This document shows positions 12,400 through 36,176 of a stretch of DNA of 37,815 nt, piece by piece. Both the position numbers and the translations under genes were made by a program. Numbering within the stretch: the stretch's first letter is position 1; every line of letters starts with the position of its first letter. The stretch is from Lactobacillaceae bacterium (GTDB lineage Bacteria > Bacillota > Bacilli > Lactobacillales > Lactobacillaceae). Under the pieces are notes generated by a model that was given only the letters and a program-made list of their open reading frames with translations, had not been told where the DNA came from and did no database searches. The stretch spans positions 1 to 37,815 of the forward strand of contig JAITPD010000027.1 in assembly GCA_031289615.1 (NCBI GenBank), given 5' to 3'.

Positions 12400-12512
12400 T
12401 CAGCATACGCTTCTAATAGGGTTAAACTAGGGGCTATTCTGTATCCCCCCCCGAATTTTTTGTGATTTTTACATGACTATTGAAAAACGTTGAGCTGGTT
12501 GGCTCAACGCTT
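12400..12512 (-). repeat. Duplicated promoter/terminator block, copy A, with C8/G8 tract
   Basis: About 113 bp nearly identical to 13969-14080. In minus-strand order it holds the terminator of the upstream paralogue, a homopolymer of 8 G (12445-12452) and the region leading to the promoter and cre site of copy A. The homopolymer differs in length from the other block (9 G). Confidence 0.85.
12483..12509 (-). terminator. Terminator after BspA-like copy B
   Basis: Minus-strand CGTTGAGC, loop CAACCA, GCTCAACG, then TTTTTCAAT. Perfect 8-bp stem. It ends the upstream paralogue and lies inside the duplicated block. Confidence 0.85.
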
Positions 12513-13968: not shown

Positions 13969-14080
13969 TCAGCATACGCTTTCAATAGGCTTAAACTGGG
14001 TGTTATTCTGTACCCCCCCCCGAATTTTTTGTGATTTTTACATGACTATTGAAAAACGTTGAGCTGGTTGGGCTCACGCT
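13969..14080 (-). repeat. Duplicated promoter/terminator block, copy B, with C9/G9 tract
   Basis: Near-identical to 12400-12512. The G tract is 9 long (14013-14021). The hairpin arms here, 14057-14064 and 14072-14079, carry a mismatch, and no gene ends directly before them, so it is a relic of the duplication. Together with 14081-14234 this fills the 308-bp gap between the surface-protein and SseB genes. Confidence 0.8.
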
Positions 14081-26899: not shown

Positions 26900-27182
26900 C
26901 ATAGTAAATTTTATAAATTCAATGAAGAACAAAAGTAACCAGATATACAATTTTTAGCGAGCTAATGGTCGGTGTAAATTAGCAGTTGTCGCTGGTGAAA
27001 GTAAATTCCGAGAAGTTATCGCGATGTGCATACAAAGTGGTAGCCGGTCGATGTCGTTACTCATCCGTTCAAGGTTGTTAGACTGCGAACTTGAGATTGT
27101 CAGTTGTGCACGACTGACGAATAACGGTGGTACCGCGATAAAACGCCCGTTAAGATGTTAAGACATTTTAACGGGTATTTTT
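26900..27182 (+). promoter_or_regulatory. T-box leader of brnQ (candidate Val specifier)
   Basis: The T-box GGTGGTACCGCG lies at 27126-27137. The terminator has arms CCCGTTAAGATGT (27146-27158) and ACATTTTAACGGG (27163-27175) with TATTTTT. The apical part of stem I is GCTAAT...GGTG...ATTAGC (26961-26982). In the lower stem, AGTA on the 5' side and GAAAGTAA on the 3' side mark the specifier loop; reading GAAA-GTA-A gives valine at 27001-27003, which suits a branched-chain carrier. The frame of the codon is by eye. Confidence 0.88.
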
Positions 27183-28680: not shown

Positions 28681-28750
28681 TCTAAGTTCTAAATTCTAAA
28701 TCCTAAGTTCTAAATTCTAAATCCTAAATCCTAAATCCTAAATCCTAAAT
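28681..28750. repeat. Heptamer tandem array, 10 units of (T/C)CTAA(A/G)T
   Basis: Ten contiguous 7-base units: mixed TCTAAGT/TCTAAAT/CCTAAGT at the left, then four identical CCTAAAT at the right. It lies between the brnQ terminator and the stop codon of a convergent small gene. The graded purity suggests growth by slippage at the right end. No palindrome or spacer structure. Confidence 0.85.
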
Positions 28751-28757
28751 CCTTAAA

Positions 28758-28943
28758 TTATAAATCTAGATCCATGAACTCTAAAGACTCATTTAGTTTT
28801 AGTTTCATCCGACAAAATGCCTCGATTTTTTGAATCAGTTTTTCTTCTTCTTTAAAAATCATAGCGGTCGAATATGAAAACGGCCATCCTTTTTCAATAT
28901 GATCGGCATGTTGTTGCTTCAACTCATTTAGTTCTTTGTTCAT
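28758..28943 (-). CDS. Small soluble helical protein (61 aa), unknown
   Basis: Highly charged helical protein: NKELNELKQQHADHIEKG, then a short WPFSYSTAMIFKEEEKLIQK stretch and FCRMKLKLNESLEFMDLDL. GAGGAG nine bases before the ATG supports expression. It is the last gene of the secreted-paralogue cluster by position, and the 74 bases upstream contain a relic of that cluster's leader (GTCGTAAAACGG at about 29001-29013). Not recognised; no signal peptide. Confidence 0.6.
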   Translation of the reverse strand: MNKELNELKQQHADHIEKGWPFSYSTAMIFKEEEKLIQKIEAFCRMKLKLNESLEFMDLDL

Positions 28944-28979
28944 CGCTGGAACTCCTCGCTTTATTCAAAACACGCTTGA

Positions 28980-29020
28980 TAATATGTCAAAAATAGACAC
29001 ATCCGTTTTACGACATATTA
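28980..29020 (-). repeat. Inverted repeat overlapping the stop of the last secreted paralogue
   Basis: TAATATGTC (28980-28988) and GACATATTA (29012-29020) are exact inverted copies, the second covering the stop codon. No U-tract after the stem, so it is not a standard terminator. The inner part matches the hairpin-leader region found upstream of the cluster genes. Confidence 0.6.
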
Positions 29021-29761
29021 ATCACCATTGTATGCTTGGTGATATGTCCAAGATTCAACATATACGCCATTACCTGTTGCATATACACCGCTAACAGCAT
29101 GTGACCTAATTTCTTTAGGTACGGCAATTTTAAATGTGTATGATAGGTGAGCAGAAGTATCTTCTACCCCTACGTGATCAAAAATGTCTGCTGATTGACC
29201 ATGTCCACAGATTAGATTTTTGTCGTACTTTACCATACGCTCTTCAGCACTTGCCATTCCGATAATACTCGTAGCTTTCCCTGCCCCGATAACTACGTCA
29301 GGAGAGACGTCGCTCGGATTTTTAGCTCCTTGGGCAGTTGTCAATACGACATCCCACTCAGCGTACTCTGGCACTGTTATCTTTAGCTTACAATGGAAGT
29401 CATCTGCAATTGGCGTGATTCGATAATACACATATTCACCAGCATGATTATAATTATAAAAGTCTTCATATTCAGCACCAACGTTACTAGCATTGCTTTG
29501 AGAAGCATAATCGACATCTGTAGGACTATACGGTGCATCCCATCCTTGGTATACACCGAGCCCATATTCTTCAGAATTGTCAAATGCTTGTACTGTTCCG
29601 GTTTGGACATGATCTTGGCGCAATTGAATTGGTAATATTGCTGCATGTGCTGGAGTTGGCACCCCTACTAAACTGGCAGATGTAATCAAACCAGTTAAAC
29701 TAGATGAGGCAATCAACGCAACAGCAATTGCACTTGTTAAAATACGTGTTACTTTATTCAT
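29018..29761 (-). CDS. Secreted cluster protein 6: signal peptide plus C-terminal domain, no repeat
   Basis: 247 aa. Signal peptide 1-40 (MNKVTR, hydrophobic core, PAHA). A short linker (~41-95, with SPTDVDY) leads straight to the shared C-terminal domain: YNHAGEYVYYRITPIADDF (~103-121), EWDVVL, SYTFKIAVP and GVYATGNGVYVESWTYHQAYNGD. It lacks the ~100-aa repeat domain of the larger paralogues. No wall-anchor motif. The ATG follows the RBS-hairpin leader at 29767-29782. Function unknown; the family is not one I recognise. Confidence 0.8.
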   Translation of the reverse strand: MNKVTRILTSAIAVALIASSSLTGLITSASLVGVPTPAHAAILPIQLRQDHVQTGTVQAFDNSEEYGLGVYQGWDAPYSPTDVDYASQSNASNVGAEYEDFYNYNHAGEYVYYRITPIADDFHCKLKITVPEYAEWDVVLTTAQGAKNPSDVSPDVVIGAGKATSIIGMASAEERMVKYDKNLICGHGQSADIFDHVGVEDTSAHLSYTFKIAVPKEIRSHAVSGVYATGNGVYVESWTYHQAYNGD

Positions 29762-29766
29762 TACTT

Positions 29767-29813
29767 GTTTCTCCTTAGAAACTTAAATAGTTTTACGACA
29801 AGCTAATCAGCTT
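29767..29813 (-). promoter_or_regulatory. Cluster leader, gene 6: RBS hairpin and upstream hairpin
   Basis: Minus-strand GTTTCTAAGGAGAAAC (29767-29782) is an inverted repeat with AAGGAG at its centre, five bases before ATG. Upstream AAGCTGATTAGCTT (29800-29813) is a second hairpin, followed by GTCGTAAAACTATTTAA. Confidence 0.65.
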
Positions 29814-29814
29814 A

Positions 29815-31272
29815 CTAGCCGTTATATGCTTGGTGATAAGTGAACCACTCAACCTTAACACCATAACCCTTTGCGTATATACCGCTAACAGTTTGTTTCA
29901 ATTCCTTTGTGGGCACAGCAATTTTAAATGTGTATGATGGGTGTCCCGAAGTATCAATTATAAAGTTTTCACCAATAAGATTTGTACTGTATTCTAACCG
30001 ATGTTCAAACCCACCTTCGTAGTTTCCACTAATGTCATTAGTGTCCTTGGCTCCCACAACTAGGCTACTATTATCCACTATATTCCACATATCTGCCTGA
30101 GTCTGAACATAGCCACCAGTATATGGGCAATCAAAAACGACATCCCAATCAGCATAATTCTTAACATCTAGTGTTAAATGAACATTAAACTTATCAGCAA
30201 TCGGCGTAATCCGACAATACACATATTCACCTGAGTGATTATAATTAGCTGCTCGAACTGATTTCGGTTGCGTTAGATTTTGCGTAAATGAATCAACCTC
30301 TGCAGCACTATAATCACCTGTCCACGGATTTGAATTTAGGTCCCTTACAGCTTCGGTTTGAACGTATTTTTCAATTGGTCCATCATCTTCATCGGTATAA
30401 TTTGCGACAACAGATGCATTACGTCCTGTCACTGTAATATTATTTAGTTGTTTAGTTTGGATATTAAATGTATAGTTCTTACCTGAATCAACGTGGACTA
30501 AACTACCATCACTCATTGAAACTGCATTGGCTAATAACAAAAATTGAACCTGACCAGCTCTTGCCGGTTTAACATTGAATGTTTTAGTTTCTTCATCATA
30601 ACTTGTGGCAGTAAGCCTAGTTGGGGTTGTAGGGCTATAAGCACCTGTTACATAGAACTCATGATCTTCTCCATTAACTTCTACATCGAATTGCATTCGT
30701 TTACTATCAACCTTGACTTCATCTTGTTCAGTTGTTTCAGAATATTCCTTTTTAAACAATTGATTATCAAAAGATGCGGTAATATCAACATTTGAAGCCA
30801 ACAACTTTAGATTCTTAAACTGCTTTGTTTGAATTTTGAATGTATATTTTTCGCCTTCTTCTATTTGAACTGAACTATGGTCACCCATCAAAACTTTATC
30901 TCGCTGTAAGCTAAATTGCGTTTGACCAGGCCTAGCTACACTAACAGTAAAAGTTTTTGTTGCTGCATCGTAATCAGTGGCTGCAAGAAGGTCATCGCCT
31001 GTTGAATCAGCACCCATAAGTTGAAATTGAGGGTCATTTCCATGCGGGACGACAGTAAACTTTGTTCTCTGATTATCAACATTTAACACGGATTCTTCAG
31101 TGTTTGAGCCGATTTCATTTGAATAGAACTGCAAGCCTGTATCTTCGTTCACTGAAGTGGTTGCCACTGTATCTTGTGCATACATAAATGGCGTGGTTAA
31201 GCCCACTACACCTGTTCCTGCAATCACTCCAACGGCAATTGCACTTGTTAAAACACGTGTTACTTTATTCAT
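29815..31272 (-). CDS. Secreted cluster protein 5: two repeat domains plus C-terminal domain
   Basis: 485 aa. Signal peptide 1-31 (MNKVTRVLTS, core, MYA). Two ~110-aa repeats, about 55-165 and 170-285, share TKFTVVP/MQFDVEV starts, YDAATKTFTV/YDEETKTFNV, KVLMGDHS/AVSMSDGS and a YTFKIQTKQF/YTFNIQTKQL end. Then a linker (PIEKYVQTEAVRDLNSNPW) and the C-terminal domain from ~345: YNHSGEYVYCRITPIADKF, DWDVVF, SYTFKIAVP, WFTYHQAYNG. The frame opens one GTG codon earlier; the ATG at 31272 is taken. No LPXTG or WxL. Predicted beta-rich extracellular protein of unknown role. Confidence 0.82.
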   Translation of the reverse strand: MNKVTRVLTSAIAVGVIAGTGVVGLTTPFMYAQDTVATTSVNEDTGLQFYSNEIGSNTEESVLNVDNQRTKFTVVPHGNDPQFQLMGADSTGDDLLAATDYDAATKTFTVSVARPGQTQFSLQRDKVLMGDHSSVQIEEGEKYTFKIQTKQFKNLKLLASNVDITASFDNQLFKKEYSETTEQDEVKVDSKRMQFDVEVNGEDHEFYVTGAYSPTTPTRLTATSYDEETKTFNVKPARAGQVQFLLLANAVSMSDGSLVHVDSGKNYTFNIQTKQLNNITVTGRNASVVANYTDEDDGPIEKYVQTEAVRDLNSNPWTGDYSAAEVDSFTQNLTQPKSVRAANYNHSGEYVYCRITPIADKFNVHLTLDVKNYADWDVVFDCPYTGGYVQTQADMWNIVDNSSLVVGAKDTNDISGNYEGGFEHRLEYSTNLIGENFIIDTSGHPSYTFKIAVPTKELKQTVSGIYAKGYGVKVEWFTYHQAYNG

Positions 31273-31277
31273 CACTT

Positions 31278-31321
31278 GTTTCTCCTTAGAAACTTAAATA
31301 GTTTTAAGCCATATATTAGCT
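31278..31321 (-). promoter_or_regulatory. Cluster leader, gene 5
   Basis: GTTTCTAAGGAGAAAC (31278-31293) as in gene 6, preceded by AAAACTATTTAA and a weaker upstream stem AGC/GCT around AATATAT. Confidence 0.55.
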
Positions 31322-31342
31322 GTTTAGATAAATTGGTTTTTA

Positions 31343-31939
31343 TCACAAAATATCAAGGTCACTACCTTGGCTTGCGACATACTTTGATACTGTAAAGTCA
31401 ATGTTTGATCCAGAAATTTCCAAATTATCAACAGAACCGTTGAAAAAAGAGCTATCGTGTACGTAAATTGAATATTCTTTTCCTGGTTTCAAATCTTTTA
31501 CACTGCCATCATCAAGCTTAACTGAATTATTTTTAACTTCAAATTCTGTAGTGTCCTTATCAACCGGATAGGCATCGATAATACCAAAGCTTAATTCGTC
31601 GTCGGTTGCATTAAGAGCATAATTAATCACTTGATCACCATTCTTACCGACAACTTTTAGATTAAAATAGCCTTGTGTATCAGTAACCTTAATCTTAATA
31701 CGAGCGCCATTACTTCCAAGAGGTGCTATGATTGGGTCATTAACATTTAGTACAGTCAGACAATCGCTCGCCGTTTCCACAAATGTAGCCCCATTAGGAT
31801 AAGGATTGGGCGATTGCTTTGCCGTCACAGGTGGTACGGTTGCTGCGTTAGCAAATGGAGCTGTTAACCCAACGAGAGCAGTTGCTGAGAACAATCCCAC
31901 AGCAACGGAGCTGATTAAAACACGTGTTACCTTATTCAT
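31343..31939 (-). CDS. Secreted cluster protein 4: one repeat domain, no C-terminal domain
   Basis: 198 aa. Signal peptide 1-32 (core and ANA). The rest is a single repeat-type domain with DPIIAPLGS, KIKVTDTQGYFNLKVVG, NSVKLDDGSVKDLKPGKEYSIYV and DNLEISGSNIDFTVSKYV. These line up with the MSDGS...YTFNIQT...DV motifs of the two-repeat paralogues. It ends without the YNHSGEYVY domain. About 70% identical by eye to cluster protein 3. ATG behind the RBS-hairpin leader. Confidence 0.8.
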   Translation of the reverse strand: MNKVTRVLISSVAVGLFSATALVGLTAPFANAATVPPVTAKQSPNPYPNGATFVETASDCLTVLNVNDPIIAPLGSNGARIKIKVTDTQGYFNLKVVGKNGDQVINYALNATDDELSFGIIDAYPVDKDTTEFEVKNNSVKLDDGSVKDLKPGKEYSIYVHDSSFFNGSVDNLEISGSNIDFTVSKYVASQGSDLDIL

Positions 31940-31944
31940 TACTT

Positions 31945-31998
31945 GTTTCTCCTTAGAAACTAAAATTATTTAAACGGTTTTACGACATGTTCAGGTCG
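31945..31998 (-). promoter_or_regulatory. Cluster leader, gene 4
   Basis: GTTTCTAAGGAGAAAC (31945-31960) and, upstream, CGAC-8-GTCG (31983-31998) followed by TAAAACCGTTTAAATAA. Confidence 0.65.
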
Positions 31999-32027
31999 AG
32001 TATTGTCAATAACTAACTTATTTTTTA

Positions 32028-32624
32028 TCAAAAAATATCAACGTAACTAGCTTGGCTTGCTACATACTTTGATACTGTAAAGTCAATGTTTGATCCATAA
32101 ATTTCCAAATTATCTACAGATTCGTCGAAAAAAGAGCTACCGTAAATATAAATTGAATATTCTTTTTCTGGCTTCAAGTTTTTTACACTGCCATCATCAA
32201 AGTTAACCGAATTATTATTAATTTCACATCCTGGTGTGTCTTCATCGACCGGATAGGCATAAAGAACATCCCACCCAAAGACTAGATCATTTGCACTAAA
32301 AACATAATTGAGCACTTGATCGCCACTTTTTCCGACAATTTTAAAATTAAAATCAGCTGATGCATCCGTAACCTTAATTTTAATAAGTCCTCCGATACTA
32401 TTAAGAGGAGCAATGATTGGGTCATTAACGTTTAATGCCGTCAGACCATCGCTAGCCGTTTCCGCAAATGTACCATCAGCAGGCAAATGAGTAACTGTAT
32501 ACTTAACTGTTTCAGTAGGCACATCTGCCGCTTGGACAAAAGGCGTTGCTACGCTGATTAAACTTGATCCCGCAATTACACCTACTGCTAGGGCACTTAC
32601 TAAAATACGTGTTACTTTATTCAT
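32028..32624 (-). CDS. Secreted cluster protein 3: one repeat domain, no C-terminal domain
   Basis: 198 aa, close paralogue of cluster protein 4 with identical length. Signal peptide 1-32 (MNKVTRILVS, core, VQAA). Shared body: DGLTALNVNDPIIAPL, KIKVTDASADFNFKIVG, NNSVNFDDGSVKNLKPEKEY and IDFTVSKYVASQ. Differences cluster around the middle (WDVLYAYPVDEDTPGCEIN), which includes a cysteine. A recent tandem duplication gave genes 3 and 4. The leader differs from the others but keeps an RBS flanked by an inverted repeat. Confidence 0.8.
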   Translation of the reverse strand: MNKVTRILVSALAVGVIAGSSLISVATPFVQAADVPTETVKYTVTHLPADGTFAETASDGLTALNVNDPIIAPLNSIGGLIKIKVTDASADFNFKIVGKSGDQVLNYVFSANDLVFGWDVLYAYPVDEDTPGCEINNNSVNFDDGSVKNLKPEKEYSIYIYGSSFFDESVDNLEIYGSNIDFTVSKYVASQASYVDIF

Positions 32625-32628
32625 TATC

Positions 32629-32644
32629 TATTTCTCCTTAAATA
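32629..32644 (-). promoter_or_regulatory. Cluster leader, gene 3 (variant RBS hairpin)
   Basis: TATTTAAGGAGAAATA keeps AAGGAG in a loop between TATTT and AAATA, where the other leaders have GTTT and AAAC. The change on both sides preserves pairing. Confidence 0.5.
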
Positions 32645-32689
32645 CTCTGAAATTAACCAGATTATGACTTTGCATCCGTTTGCTTGACA

Positions 32690-32905
32690 TTAATACGTGT
32701 AATACACGCTGTCCACGTCATCCCATGATGCCTTAGCGTTGTTAACTTGCTCACCAACTATTCCATGGTCCTGAATTGATTCGTCTTGAAGTTGAAAGGG
32801 AACCTTGGCTGTATGCAGAAATGGTGCTGTAAGTCCAATTACAATTGAGATCACGATGATACATGCTGTTATGACACTTGCTAAAATCCGAGCTGTCTTT
32901 TTCAT
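32690..32905 (-). CDS. Secreted cluster protein 2: short, apparently truncated paralogue
   Basis: 71 aa: signal-peptide-like start (MKKTARILASVITACIIV, core, LHTA) followed by a linker VPFQLQDESIQDHG and a WDDVDSVYYTY end. The linker matches the stretch that precedes the C-terminal domain in protein 6 (YSPTDVDY) and 5 (YSAAEVDS), and the ORF stops where that domain should begin. The ATG at 32905 has AAGGATGGAAGAA upstream; an ATG at 32923 lacks an RBS. It starts 20 bases after the stop of gene 1. Probably a truncated gene, though a short secreted peptide cannot be excluded. Confidence 0.55.
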   Translation of the reverse strand: MKKTARILASVITACIIVISIVIGLTAPFLHTAKVPFQLQDESIQDHGIVGEQVNNAKASWDDVDSVYYTY

Positions 32906-32924
32906 TTCTTCCATCCTTTTCATT

Positions 32925-34454
32925 TTACAAATGCGCTTTGTAACCAGTCGTTTGGTGATAAGTGAACCATTCTAACTTAACTCCATGCGCATAAGCACCA
33001 TAGATTCCACGAACTGCTGATTCTAGTGGACCAGTCAACCCTGCCCGACTAGCCACCTCAAACTTCAAAGTATATGATTTAGGCGTCGGAACAGTTGTCC
33101 CACAAATCACTGCTTCACCAGCATGCCCCTGTTCATAAGAAGTTGCATAATTTGCCAATACGGTCCCTGCAGCCAATGTGCTGTAATATTGTTTAGCTCT
33201 AATAATGTGTGATGCGTCTCCATCAGGGTTACCGCCTGGTAGTGCAAAATTATTATCCAGTTGCCTTTTTACATCAGCTTCAAAGTCCACTGAATAGTCA
33301 TTAGCAATCGGTGTCACACGGCAATAAACAATTTCACCTGAATGATTGTAGTGTACTGAATCACGATTGTGTCCGCGATCTCCATAAATTTCTTCAACTT
33401 GATAATCGACTTGTGCACTCGAGTAACCATTCCCCCAAGGCACTTCGTCTGGATCGGTCACTGCTGACAATTGAGTGTAGTTTTCAATTGGCCCAGTATA
33501 ATCATTTCCGACCTGCGATGGAAAAGCACTAACGTCGACATTCATCCCAGCAATTAAAACATCTACTAATCGCGTCGTTTGAATGTTAAATGTGTATTTG
33601 GTTCCCACGTCAAGATGCTGTTGTGTTCCATCAGCCATAAAGACCGTCTTGTTTTCAACGTTTAACTTCTGATTCATTTCACTTTTTGGCTTAAGAGTAA
33701 AAGTATTCGTTTCTGGATCAAAGTCAGTTGCAGCTAGTGTTAGCTCAACATCGTTATATGCATGACCGACAAACGATAGCCCGGTGTCACCACGAGATGG
33801 AATAAACATCTCAACTGATGTCATTTGATTATTGACTTGGTATTTAGTTTCTTCAGCATAGAAGTCACTTAGATGTGCAGAATATGATTTATTAAAGTTT
33901 CCCGCGCTCACTGTTGGAATATATTTTGTTTGGCTTGCTTCAATATCGATTCCTAGCCCGTGAATTCTAATGTCGTCTGCTTCATTTGTTTGAACGTCAA
34001 ATGAATACGTTTGACCTTTTTCAATGGTGACAATATACCCATCACTCAATGTCACTTTGTCATCAATTAAGATTCCTTCTTGCTGACCATCTTTTATTGA
34101 TCGCATCGTGAAAGTACGGGTGTCTGCGTCGTAATTTGCCGCAGTATAACTGTGTGGAAATTCTTTTCCAACCTTGCCATCAATTACAAACGTACAGTGT
34201 CCCTCAAGCTTTGTAGTAACGTTAATCACTGCAGAAGAACCATAGGCAATATGATAATCCACTAAATCAGCGTGATCTGACGGAAATGAGTACTTAATTG
34301 TTGAATCATCATCCTCATCCTCTGCTAAAGACTTAACTTTCGCAGACGGAATAACTGTTGCGTGGATAAACGGGGTTACCATCCCCACAATCCCTGTTGC
34401 TGTGAACAATCCAACCGCAACAACAGCAGCTAAAATACGTGTCACCTTATTCAT
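32925..34454 (-). CDS. Secreted cluster protein 1: two repeat domains plus C-terminal domain
   Basis: 509 aa, the first gene of the cluster. Signal peptide ~1-30 (MNKVTRILAA, core, IHA). Two repeat domains, about 60-180 and 195-310, with TAANYDADTRTFTM/AATDFDPETNTFTL, TLSDGYIVTIEKGQTYSFDVQT and FMADGTQQHLDVGTKYTFNI. The linker PIENYTQLSAVTDPDEVPWG leads to the C-terminal domain: YNHSGEIVYCRVTPIANDYS, a longer insert (~415-450), SYTLKFEVA and GVKLEWFTYHQ. The longer frame start at 34478 overlaps the RBS; ATG 34454 is taken. Same plan as cluster protein 5 but strongly diverged. No anchor motif, function unknown. Confidence 0.82.
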   Translation of the reverse strand: MNKVTRILAAVVAVGLFTATGIVGMVTPFIHATVIPSAKVKSLAEDEDDDSTIKYSFPSDHADLVDYHIAYGSSAVINVTTKLEGHCTFVIDGKVGKEFPHSYTAANYDADTRTFTMRSIKDGQQEGILIDDKVTLSDGYIVTIEKGQTYSFDVQTNEADDIRIHGLGIDIEASQTKYIPTVSAGNFNKSYSAHLSDFYAEETKYQVNNQMTSVEMFIPSRGDTGLSFVGHAYNDVELTLAATDFDPETNTFTLKPKSEMNQKLNVENKTVFMADGTQQHLDVGTKYTFNIQTTRLVDVLIAGMNVDVSAFPSQVGNDYTGPIENYTQLSAVTDPDEVPWGNGYSSAQVDYQVEEIYGDRGHNRDSVHYNHSGEIVYCRVTPIANDYSVDFEADVKRQLDNNFALPGGNPDGDASHIIRAKQYYSTLAAGTVLANYATSYEQGHAGEAVICGTTVPTPKSYTLKFEVASRAGLTGPLESAVRGIYGAYAHGVKLEWFTYHQTTGYKAHL

Positions 34455-35138
34455 ACCTTGTTTCTCCTTAGAAACCAAAAATAGTAAAACAGTTTCACGA
34501 CATATTTAGGTCGATCGTCTGGGATAGTCTGCAAGTGAATTTTTTATTTTTTGAAAATTAAGCTATATTGCTAATTGTCTTTTTAATATTTATACAATAT
34601 AAGTGGTATATTAATCGCTATTTATATGGTTTGTGAATTAAATAGCTACTAATAGAAACGCTTTCGTTCTATTTTCATCTAAAAAAATTAAATAATTCCA
34701 ACAAATATTTTCTCGCTCAATGTTCACAAAACGTCCTAAACACGCTTTATTAATCTTCCTTTTTATCGGACACCGTGAATTATGGACCCTATGTTAGAAT
34801 TTTAAAAACCTTTAATGTGAAAAAAATAAGATTTTAACGTGCATTATTTCACAATTTATTTATATTCATTACAGTAACTTCATTTTTTGTCTCATAACAG
34901 AAAATATATTGTTACAAATTAAAAAAATCACAATATACATCAAAAATTCCACTACTCTGTATTTTGTTCAAATGAGTGGGTTTCTTCTACATAGTGTGTA
35001 TTATTTTTTCGTTATTTTTAATAGGTTTGGGCACGAAAATCACATATTAAATGTTACAAATGGATGCTACACTGGAAATATAAATGAAATATTACTTTTA
35101 ACTTGTCACACCTCTACTTATGAAAGCAGGAGACGATT
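34455..35138. promoter_or_regulatory. AT-rich divergent region between cluster and DUF3089 gene
   Basis: 684 bp with no credible gene. At the left, the cluster leader has GTTTCTAAGGAGAAAC (34460-34475) and CGAC-8-GTCG (34498-34513). At 34651-34673, AATAGAA-9-TTCTATT is an exact 7-bp inverted repeat enclosing AGAAACGCTTTCGT, a degenerate cre-like core. The stretch 34540-34930 is strongly AT-rich with several homopolymer runs; promoters for both directions must lie here but cannot be fixed with confidence. Confidence 0.6.
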
Positions 35139-36176
35139 ATGAAAGAAGTTAATTTTACAGGCGCTAAAAAAATATTGTTAGGCTTTGGTTTAGCATTTGG
35201 AATCGTTGCACTGATGGGTTCCGTTCCAGTCACGCACGCCTCCACCACTGCTAACACGACCCCGACCAACTATGCGACTGCTAGCAACTGGGTCGCACGT
35301 CCAACTAGCACGCCCAAGGACGTCGATGTATTTTATCTGTACCCCACAGCCTTTGTTGGCAATAAAACAACCAACTATATTGGTGATGTCAGCACTACTA
35401 AGACTAGTGGCGCAAGTTATGTAACTAAGCATGGGGATGTCTTTAAGGAGACGGCCAACATCTACGCCCCTGCTTATCGGCAATACGATTGTTTCTACCT
35501 AATGGACTTTACGATTGAGGAGCAGCTTGAGAAATTTTATTCAGAACCACTGCAAGATGCCACGGCAGCCTTTGAGTATTATCTTGAGCATTACAACAAC
35601 GGACGTCCATTTATCTTAGCTGGGCATTCGCAAGGTTCGCTCGTGATGAAAGGCCTTTTGCAAAATTACTTTACGCAACACCCTGAACTGTTTGATCAAA
35701 TGGTTGCTGCCTATATGATTGGTGGTGCGATTACCCAAGACGAACTTGACGCAAACCCGCTCTTGAAGTTTGCTACTGGTGCCAATGATGCAGGTGTGAT
35801 TATTTCGTATAATACTGAAGCACCAGGCTTGAATGTCCGTAATCCGGTTGTTGTGCCAGGCGCAGTGGCAATTAATCCAATTAGCTGGTCACGTGGCGAA
35901 GAAGTTGCGACGGCCTCATCAAGTTTAGGCTCACGAATCAACAATGTTCAACGACTGAATTTTGCAGATGCGAAACTTAATCTGGCACGCGGTGTAGTCG
36001 AATGTTCGACAGTCAGCCCAAGCACGTACAGCTACACCGGCACATTTGCCACTATCTTCCCACAAGGCATCTATCACAACTATGACTATGATTTTTATCA
36101 TTATAATTTGATTGAAAATGTGGCTGCCAGAACCCAAACATACTTTAACAACTTAGCATCTCATCCTGCTGAATAG
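35139..36176 (+). CDS. Exported DUF3089 alpha/beta hydrolase
   Basis: 345 aa. Signal peptide 1-34 (FTGAKK, core, THA). The mature part matches DUF3089: VDVFYLYPTAFVGN (62-75), ANIYAPAYRQ (106-115), then the lipase-like nucleophile elbow GHSQG (162-166, S164), and H in GIYHNYDYDFYHYN near residue 320 as probable catalytic histidine. DUF3089 proteins are predicted serine hydrolases of unknown substrate. RBS AGGAG nine bases before the ATG. Transcribed divergently from the secreted cluster and ended by a terminator. The organism clearly invests in extracellular hydrolases and beta-rich proteins in this region. Confidence 0.85.
   Translation: MKEVNFTGAKKILLGFGLAFGIVALMGSVPVTHASTTANTTPTNYATASNWVARPTSTPKDVDVFYLYPTAFVGNKTTNYIGDVSTTKTSGASYVTKHGDVFKETANIYAPAYRQYDCFYLMDFTIEEQLEKFYSEPLQDATAAFEYYLEHYNNGRPFILAGHSQGSLVMKGLLQNYFTQHPELFDQMVAAYMIGGAITQDELDANPLLKFATGANDAGVIISYNTEAPGLNVRNPVVVPGAVAINPISWSRGEEVATASSSLGSRINNVQRLNFADAKLNLARGVVECSTVSPSTYSYTGTFATIFPQGIYHNYDYDFYHYNLIENVAARTQTYFNNLASHPAE

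Follow-up and report, generated by a model that had tools for sequence, protein, structure and literature searches.

Which kind of system is encoded by six related genes that stand in tandem, all on the minus strand, in one lactic-acid-bacterium-like genome? The genes lie at 29018..34454 of contig JAITPD010000027.1 (Lactobacillaceae bacterium, assembly GCA_031289615.1), of which positions 1 to 37,815 were analyzed and are referred to here as the window. A first-pass annotation of this DNA had described them as a tandem family of modular secreted proteins. Our tentative answer is that they form an operon, restricted to one lineage, that encodes Sec-exported, modular binding proteins of beta-sandwich type. 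For this reading the starts, architecture, descent, and selection come from the sequence and the fold from prediction, whereas ligand, localization, and assembly are what we infer.

All features of the cluster are on the minus strand, and gene 1 is the most upstream member. Gene 1 (32925..34454) encodes a protein of 509 amino acids (aa) comprising a putative signal peptide, two repeats (residues 44-182, 33909..34325, and residues 183-322, 33489..33908), and a C-terminal domain (C-domain; 32928..33497). Gene 5 (29815..31272; 485 aa) has the same layout, with its second repeat at 30370..30777, a domain that was modeled on its own, and its C-domain at 29818..30384. Gene 3 (32028..32624) and gene 4 (31343..31939), each of 198 aa and 60.6 percent identical to one another, carry a putative signal peptide and one divergent repeat, and gene 6 (29018..29761; 247 aa) carries such a signal and a C-domain only. 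Gene 2 (32690..32923; 77 aa), with a divergent signal peptide and a short tail, is possibly a remnant. The positions and strands given in the first-pass annotation are correct and all six frames are unbroken, each with a single terminal stop. Its common start MNKVTR(I/V)L is present in five genes, and gene 2 reads MKKTARIL behind a 6-aa extension. The gaps from stop to next start, calculated from the coordinates, are 1, 65, 88, 70, and 53 bp along the cluster; the transcript layout is judged from these gaps alone, because terminator-like sites in the region are only at chance level (5 versus 4.3 expected).

Relationships among the domains were judged pairwise against 500 shuffles per pairing. 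All six pairings of the gene 1 and gene 5 repeats beat every shuffle (z 14.1 to 35.5), as do all three pairs of the C-domains of genes 1, 5, and 6 (z 17.0 to 45.8). A profile of the four gene 1 and gene 5 repeats recovers the gene 4 repeat at E 1e-7 and the gene 3 repeat at E 0.0025, the best of 1000 shuffles reaching E 0.3. In pairwise comparison with the same four repeats, the score of the gene 4 repeat is matched by 0 or 1 of 500 shuffles and that of the gene 3 repeat, a weak result, by 1, 9, 6, and 36. The architectures proposed earlier (two repeats plus C-domain, one repeat, C-domain only, and neither) are thereby borne out, the gene 3 repeat being the weakest element, and the proposal of tandem growth with a modular build is likewise supported. 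Two further relationships were considered and rejected. The tail of gene 2 is not significantly similar to the three C-domains (score matched by 101, 159, and 211 of 500 shuffles), and its origin as a decayed C-domain gene is not supported. Descent of repeat and C-domain from one ancestral domain, suggested by eye from the pattern YTF.I ... V.G, fails in the shuffle test, where none of 18 pairings beats all of its own shuffles and the best is matched by 10 of 500, and with hhalign, which gives a probability of 0.2 percent.

One repeat is confidently predicted to fold as a jelly-roll beta-sandwich. The model of gene 5 repeat 2 has 11 strands, with a predicted local distance difference test score (pLDDT) of 86.1 and a predicted template modeling score (pTM) of 0.81. 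Its shape is similar to those of YomS and XepA, of GH32 C-terminal domains, and of galectins, none of them decisively so: the XepA C-domain and YomS are closest to the single repeat, and the rows within 1 Z of them (GH32 C-domains, galectin) are tied. Against all PDB chains, the repeat profile gave two weak matches (E 1) up to E 10, neither of them XepA or YomS, and the C-domain profile gave none.

Export of the six proteins is likely from their starts. Five genes show a basic N-region, a hydrophobic core, and a nearby A-X-A-like site, all read by eye, and gene 2 shows a divergent form of these, in support of the secretion that had been proposed. Cut sites for comparisons of the mature parts were placed by hand, those in genes 2 and 5 lying one residue off an alanine. 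The annotation had also seen no LPXTG, WxL, LysM, or GW motif. No anchoring family reached its cut-off in Pfam or NCBIfam; NCBIfam gave no wall-anchoring family (LPXTG, LysM, SLAP, WxL, GW) for any of the six proteins. The sole anchoring-type Pfam match at E up to 1 is PSA_CBD in gene 4 (E 0.053; 13.9 bits versus a cut-off of 27). For gene 5, the best Pfam match below cut-off is IgG_binding_B, over 12 residues (E 0.033).

No known family accounts for these proteins in the libraries searched. Neither Pfam nor NCBIfam has a model that reaches its cut-off for any of the six, PADLOC yields nothing at E up to 0.1, and the best PHROGs match, at 0.00041, covers 40 residues of gene 1 and points to a family whose function is unknown (others 0.062 or more). 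The absence of recognized domains is supported by Pfam, NCBIfam, and PADLOC, with one weak PHROGs match to set beside it. A strong match to a characterized adhesin or WxL family, named beforehand as the result that would refute an undescribed system, was looked for and not obtained. Among the papers listed in literature searches, which a paper indexed by species name could have escaped, none was seen to describe the six proteins, and a 7-residue C-domain peptide occurs in no paper.

Relatives in other genomes were sought in sets that overlap and are drawn from larger groups, except for the 28-genome genus set, which was taken whole; all counts include the source genome itself. Whole-genome searches found gene 5 in 1 of 60 genomes and gene 6 in 1 of 301, in each case the source genome. 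Profile searches added one genome each time: with the C-domain, 2 of 395 genomes in the order (the second, G560, at E 0.0039) and 2 of 398 in the phylum (G960, E 0.006); with the repeat, 2 of 28 in the genus (G018, E 0.17) and 2 of 395 in the order (G050, E 0.008). Three of these are probably chance matches, dismissed on protein type (beta-rich or repetitive) and not on inspected alignments: G560 has Ig-like or MG2-like repeated segments, G050 a 2042-aa frame with 20 Big_6 stretches, and G960 a frame of repeats that look helical by eye. Pattern scans of genome contigs gave 21 matches for gene 5 and 36 for the C-domain alignment, and a scan of viral contigs gave 9 for the latter, with none confirmed in any case; such scans rest on short conserved peptides, so that distant relatives would escape them, and the repeat profile is unsuited to them. 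A tblastn search of plasmids and phage records with gene 5 as the only query had no hits. The contig, plasmid, and phage collections may omit the source genome or very near ones. As for the host, the source genome gave no 16S match and window positions 1-24000 gave no DNA match in plasmids; among the plasmid matches listed, the best for BrnQ (at most 49 percent) and for acetoin reductase (71.5 percent) come mostly from lactic acid bacteria, which would place the host in the Lactobacillales. Overall, there is no convincing relative outside the source genome in the genome, plasmid, phage, and viral-contig sets searched.

The nearest comparison is the sister genome G007, listed as 99 percent complete, in which neither gene 5 nor gene 6 nor the repeat profile finds a match. 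There, the orthologues of brnQ and of a DUF3089 gene are adjacent on one strand with 116 bp between them. In the window, they are separated by 6,553 bp that include the cluster on the opposite strand, and DNA similarity to G007 spans both sides of the gap. The DUF3089 gene (35139-36176; strand opposite to the cluster) has a signal-peptide-like start, and among the 28 genus genomes a DUF3089 neighbor at E 1e-20 or better occurs, besides the source genome, only in G007 (76 percent). The 6.5-kb stretch was either gained here or lost in G007, which one sister genome cannot tell apart; gain in this lineage is favored because relatives elsewhere were not found. Among the flanking genes scanned there are no integrase or transposase domains, and codon usage and G+C content are host-like.

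Several features flank the cluster. Next downstream of gene 6 on the minus strand lies a 61-aa open reading frame (ORF) of cytosolic type (28758..28943), whose membership in the cluster is uncertain. It has one relative in the source genome (73 percent over 42 aa, at L069 1501-1623), with no cluster-like genes beside it, and none in 300 other genomes of the family at E 0.001. Between this ORF and brnQ, near the cluster edge, 11 tandem copies of the 7-bp unit CTAAATC occupy 28689-28766, and a T-box leader (RF00230; 112.5 bits, gathering 93) at 26913-27153 lies directly 5' of brnQ, an amino-acid transporter gene.

One feature is an addition to what the first-pass annotation observed. Genes 1, 4, 5, and 6 have a common upstream leader, the 3' end of which is a 16-nt self-complementary stretch that holds the ribosome-binding site (34460..34475, 31945..31960, 31278..31293, and 29767..29782, respectively, all on the minus strand). 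With two mismatches allowed, the whole source genome contains four such stretches, all exact and all in the cluster, and the reversed control gives 3. When the six leaders were folded, a 6-bp stem with a 4-nt loop formed in these four; gene 3 has an altered version that does not fold likewise. The total fold energies of the four leaders are ordinary compared with shuffles (z -1.24 to -0.11), and the four copies, being identical, offer no covariation. A regulatory role of the hairpin, which was considered, is unsupported on these grounds. In addition, the gap past gene 6 (28944-29017) contains a short stretch similar to the leader and start of the family, which may be left over from one more member that was lost.

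The genes had also been called rapidly evolving, and in the sense of diversifying selection this does not hold. Ratios of nonsynonymous to synonymous substitution (dN/dS; NG86 method, gene 2 left out) are 0.37 for whole genes 3 and 4 and 0.42 when the mature parts of this pair are compared (bootstrap 0.28 to 0.64). The C-domains of genes 5 and 6 likewise give 0.42, whole genes 1 and 5 give 0.29, the C-domains of genes 1 and 5 give 0.26, and the two gene 5 repeats give 0.28; in these last three comparisons synonymous sites are near saturation (dS 1.8 to 2.6). This range of 0.26 to 0.42 points to purifying, not diversifying, selection on the cluster genes, although for genes 3 and 4 the ratio rises to 0.77 in one window of 33 codons. 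Partial gene conversion between genes 3 and 4 is suggested because their divergence falls toward the 3' end, from a dS of 1.6 (codons 1-33) to 0.13 (codons 166-198); in permutations of codons 31-198 the trend was equaled in 0 of 5000 for nucleotide differences and 4 of 5000 for third positions. In codon adaptation, genes 1 and 3 to 6 fall between the 59th and 74th percentiles and gene 2 falls on the 50th, relative to a background of 287 mechanically called ORFs of at least 80 aa from 315 kb of the source genome plus the window, some of them spurious and the cluster included; the reference was 8 self-selected genes, including DnaK-, HPr-, and S1-like ones recognized by eye. An abundance like that of a surface layer (S-layer) finds no support in these values.

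How, then, might the products work? As a binding system, the cluster would be made as a single transcript, as gaps of 1 to 88 bp would allow, and each protein would be exported and cut near its A-X-A-like site. The ligand of the jelly-roll repeats would lie outside the cell and would most likely be a glycan or surface polymer, with repeat number setting the valency of binding, and the separately inherited C-domain may contribute a second function, in binding or assembly. In this reading the products serve in adhesion or in a matrix and would be soluble or loosely held, without a covalent anchor.

We prefer this role to three alternatives, namely a coat, an antagonist, and an enzyme, each of which has points in its favor. 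Co-oriented tandem genes with graded repeat numbers would suit a self-assembling extracellular coat or fiber, S-layer-like or a matrix polymer, whose modules differ in repeat number; moreover, XepA and YomS, the top structural matches of the repeat, form pentamers (PMC6834076). However, the codon adaptation of the genes (50th to 74th percentile) is ordinary, unlike that of a bulk coat, and no SLAP domain was found in the Pfam scan. Lactobacillar S-layer proteins are basic, whereas the five domain-bearing genes encode acidic mature proteins (isoelectric points 4.05 to 4.76), and overall we regard a coat as unlikely. It is improbable that the proteins are secreted to antagonize other bacteria, in the manner of bacteriocins or of membrane-active proteins, with the 61-aa ORF as a candidate immunity protein. 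Lineage restriction and paralogy suit conflict genes, and a small cytosolic-type ORF does follow the cluster. XepA is cytotoxic in plaque assays, but YomS, which together with the XepA C-domain is closest in shape, is by itself without effect (PMC6834076). Furthermore, the relative of the 61-aa ORF lies elsewhere in the source genome and not beside such a cluster, and Pfam, NCBIfam, PHROGs, and PADLOC gave no match to a bacteriocin or toxin family.

A secreted enzyme, with the C-domain as its catalytic part and the repeats as targeting modules, seems no more probable than an antagonist. Enzymes of several domains often combine a catalytic one with beta-sandwich modules, the C-domain stands alone in gene 6, and 43 alignment columns are invariant in all three C-domains, many of them polar or aromatic (including N, H, E, R, W, and Q). 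Three sequences are nevertheless too few for defining a set of catalytic residues, identity between the gene 1 and gene 5 C-domains is only 39 percent, and no enzyme family was found at cut-off in Pfam or NCBIfam, or in PDB by profile. A lower chance is given to a new species-level extracellular assembly, in which paralogues that differ in their number of jelly-roll modules (zero, one, or two) and include an unrelated C-terminal module, made from one transcript with a dedicated ribosome-binding hairpin, would co-assemble into rings or fibers whose composition shifts by domain gain, loss, and gene conversion. Least probable of all, in our judgment, is a neutral expansion in which signal-peptide-bearing genes of little function persist through duplication and gene conversion. 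The remnant-like gene 2 and the lack of the cluster in G007 fit such an expansion, but all frames are intact and dN/dS stays at 0.26 to 0.42, the bootstrap upper limit for mature genes 3 and 4 being 0.64.

If the products are indeed secreted binding modules, their natural series (0, 1, or 2 repeats, with or without the C-domain) would separate valency from domain function genetically, and two domains without an entry in the searched family libraries would gain a first example. The locus also illustrates how a set of genes for secreted proteins, specific to one species, can come to stand between neighbors that the nearest relative has side by side.

Elsewhere in the window, a 32-bp element that contains 8 or 9 consecutive G residues occurs on the minus strand at 12436-12467 and 14005-14036, about 75 bp upstream of two secreted BspA-like (DUF285) genes. 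With 1 mismatch allowed, its core is found 6 times in the source genome, 7 times in G007, and in 0 of 26 other genus genomes (reversed control 0 in both). Across the 13 copies the G-run is 7 to 12 residues long, and 12 of them start 52 to 107 bp upstream of an ORF with a secreted-type start, as read by eye. Slipped-strand phase variation of these surface leucine-rich-repeat proteins is plausible because the G-run sits at a possible promoter-spacer position; one literature search for such G-run phase variation of these proteins found nothing.

Finally, the cluster can be compared with known systems. XepA and YomS, from Bacillus subtilis prophages (PDB 6i56, 6i5o), are 4+4 antiparallel jelly-roll sandwiches of about 110 aa. 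Unlike them, the cluster proteins have putative Sec-type signals and a separate C-domain, and neither a phage relative nor, with the repeat profile at E up to 10, a sequence match was found. GH32 C-terminal beta-sandwich and galectin-type lectin domains have 4 to 20 percent identity to the repeat in structural alignments; no catalytic domain was found in the cluster proteins, and the galectin sugar-binding motif was not seen by eye, the likeness being one of fold only. With respect to the C-terminal modules of lactobacillar cell-envelope S8 proteases and of Ig-like adhesins, similarity over 51 columns links the repeat to part of the C-terminal region of an S8 protease of the same genome (profile E 0.0038; hhalign E 0.00056 with a probability of 30 percent), at a level under any firm threshold. 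This segment is under half a repeat and lies outside the Fn3-like Pfam domain of the protease, in a part without a Pfam hit. The cluster itself contains no protease. In gene organization, the extracellular-protein clusters of Lactobacillus kunkeei reportedly also consist of neighboring secreted-protein genes within one species group, the genes there being very large.
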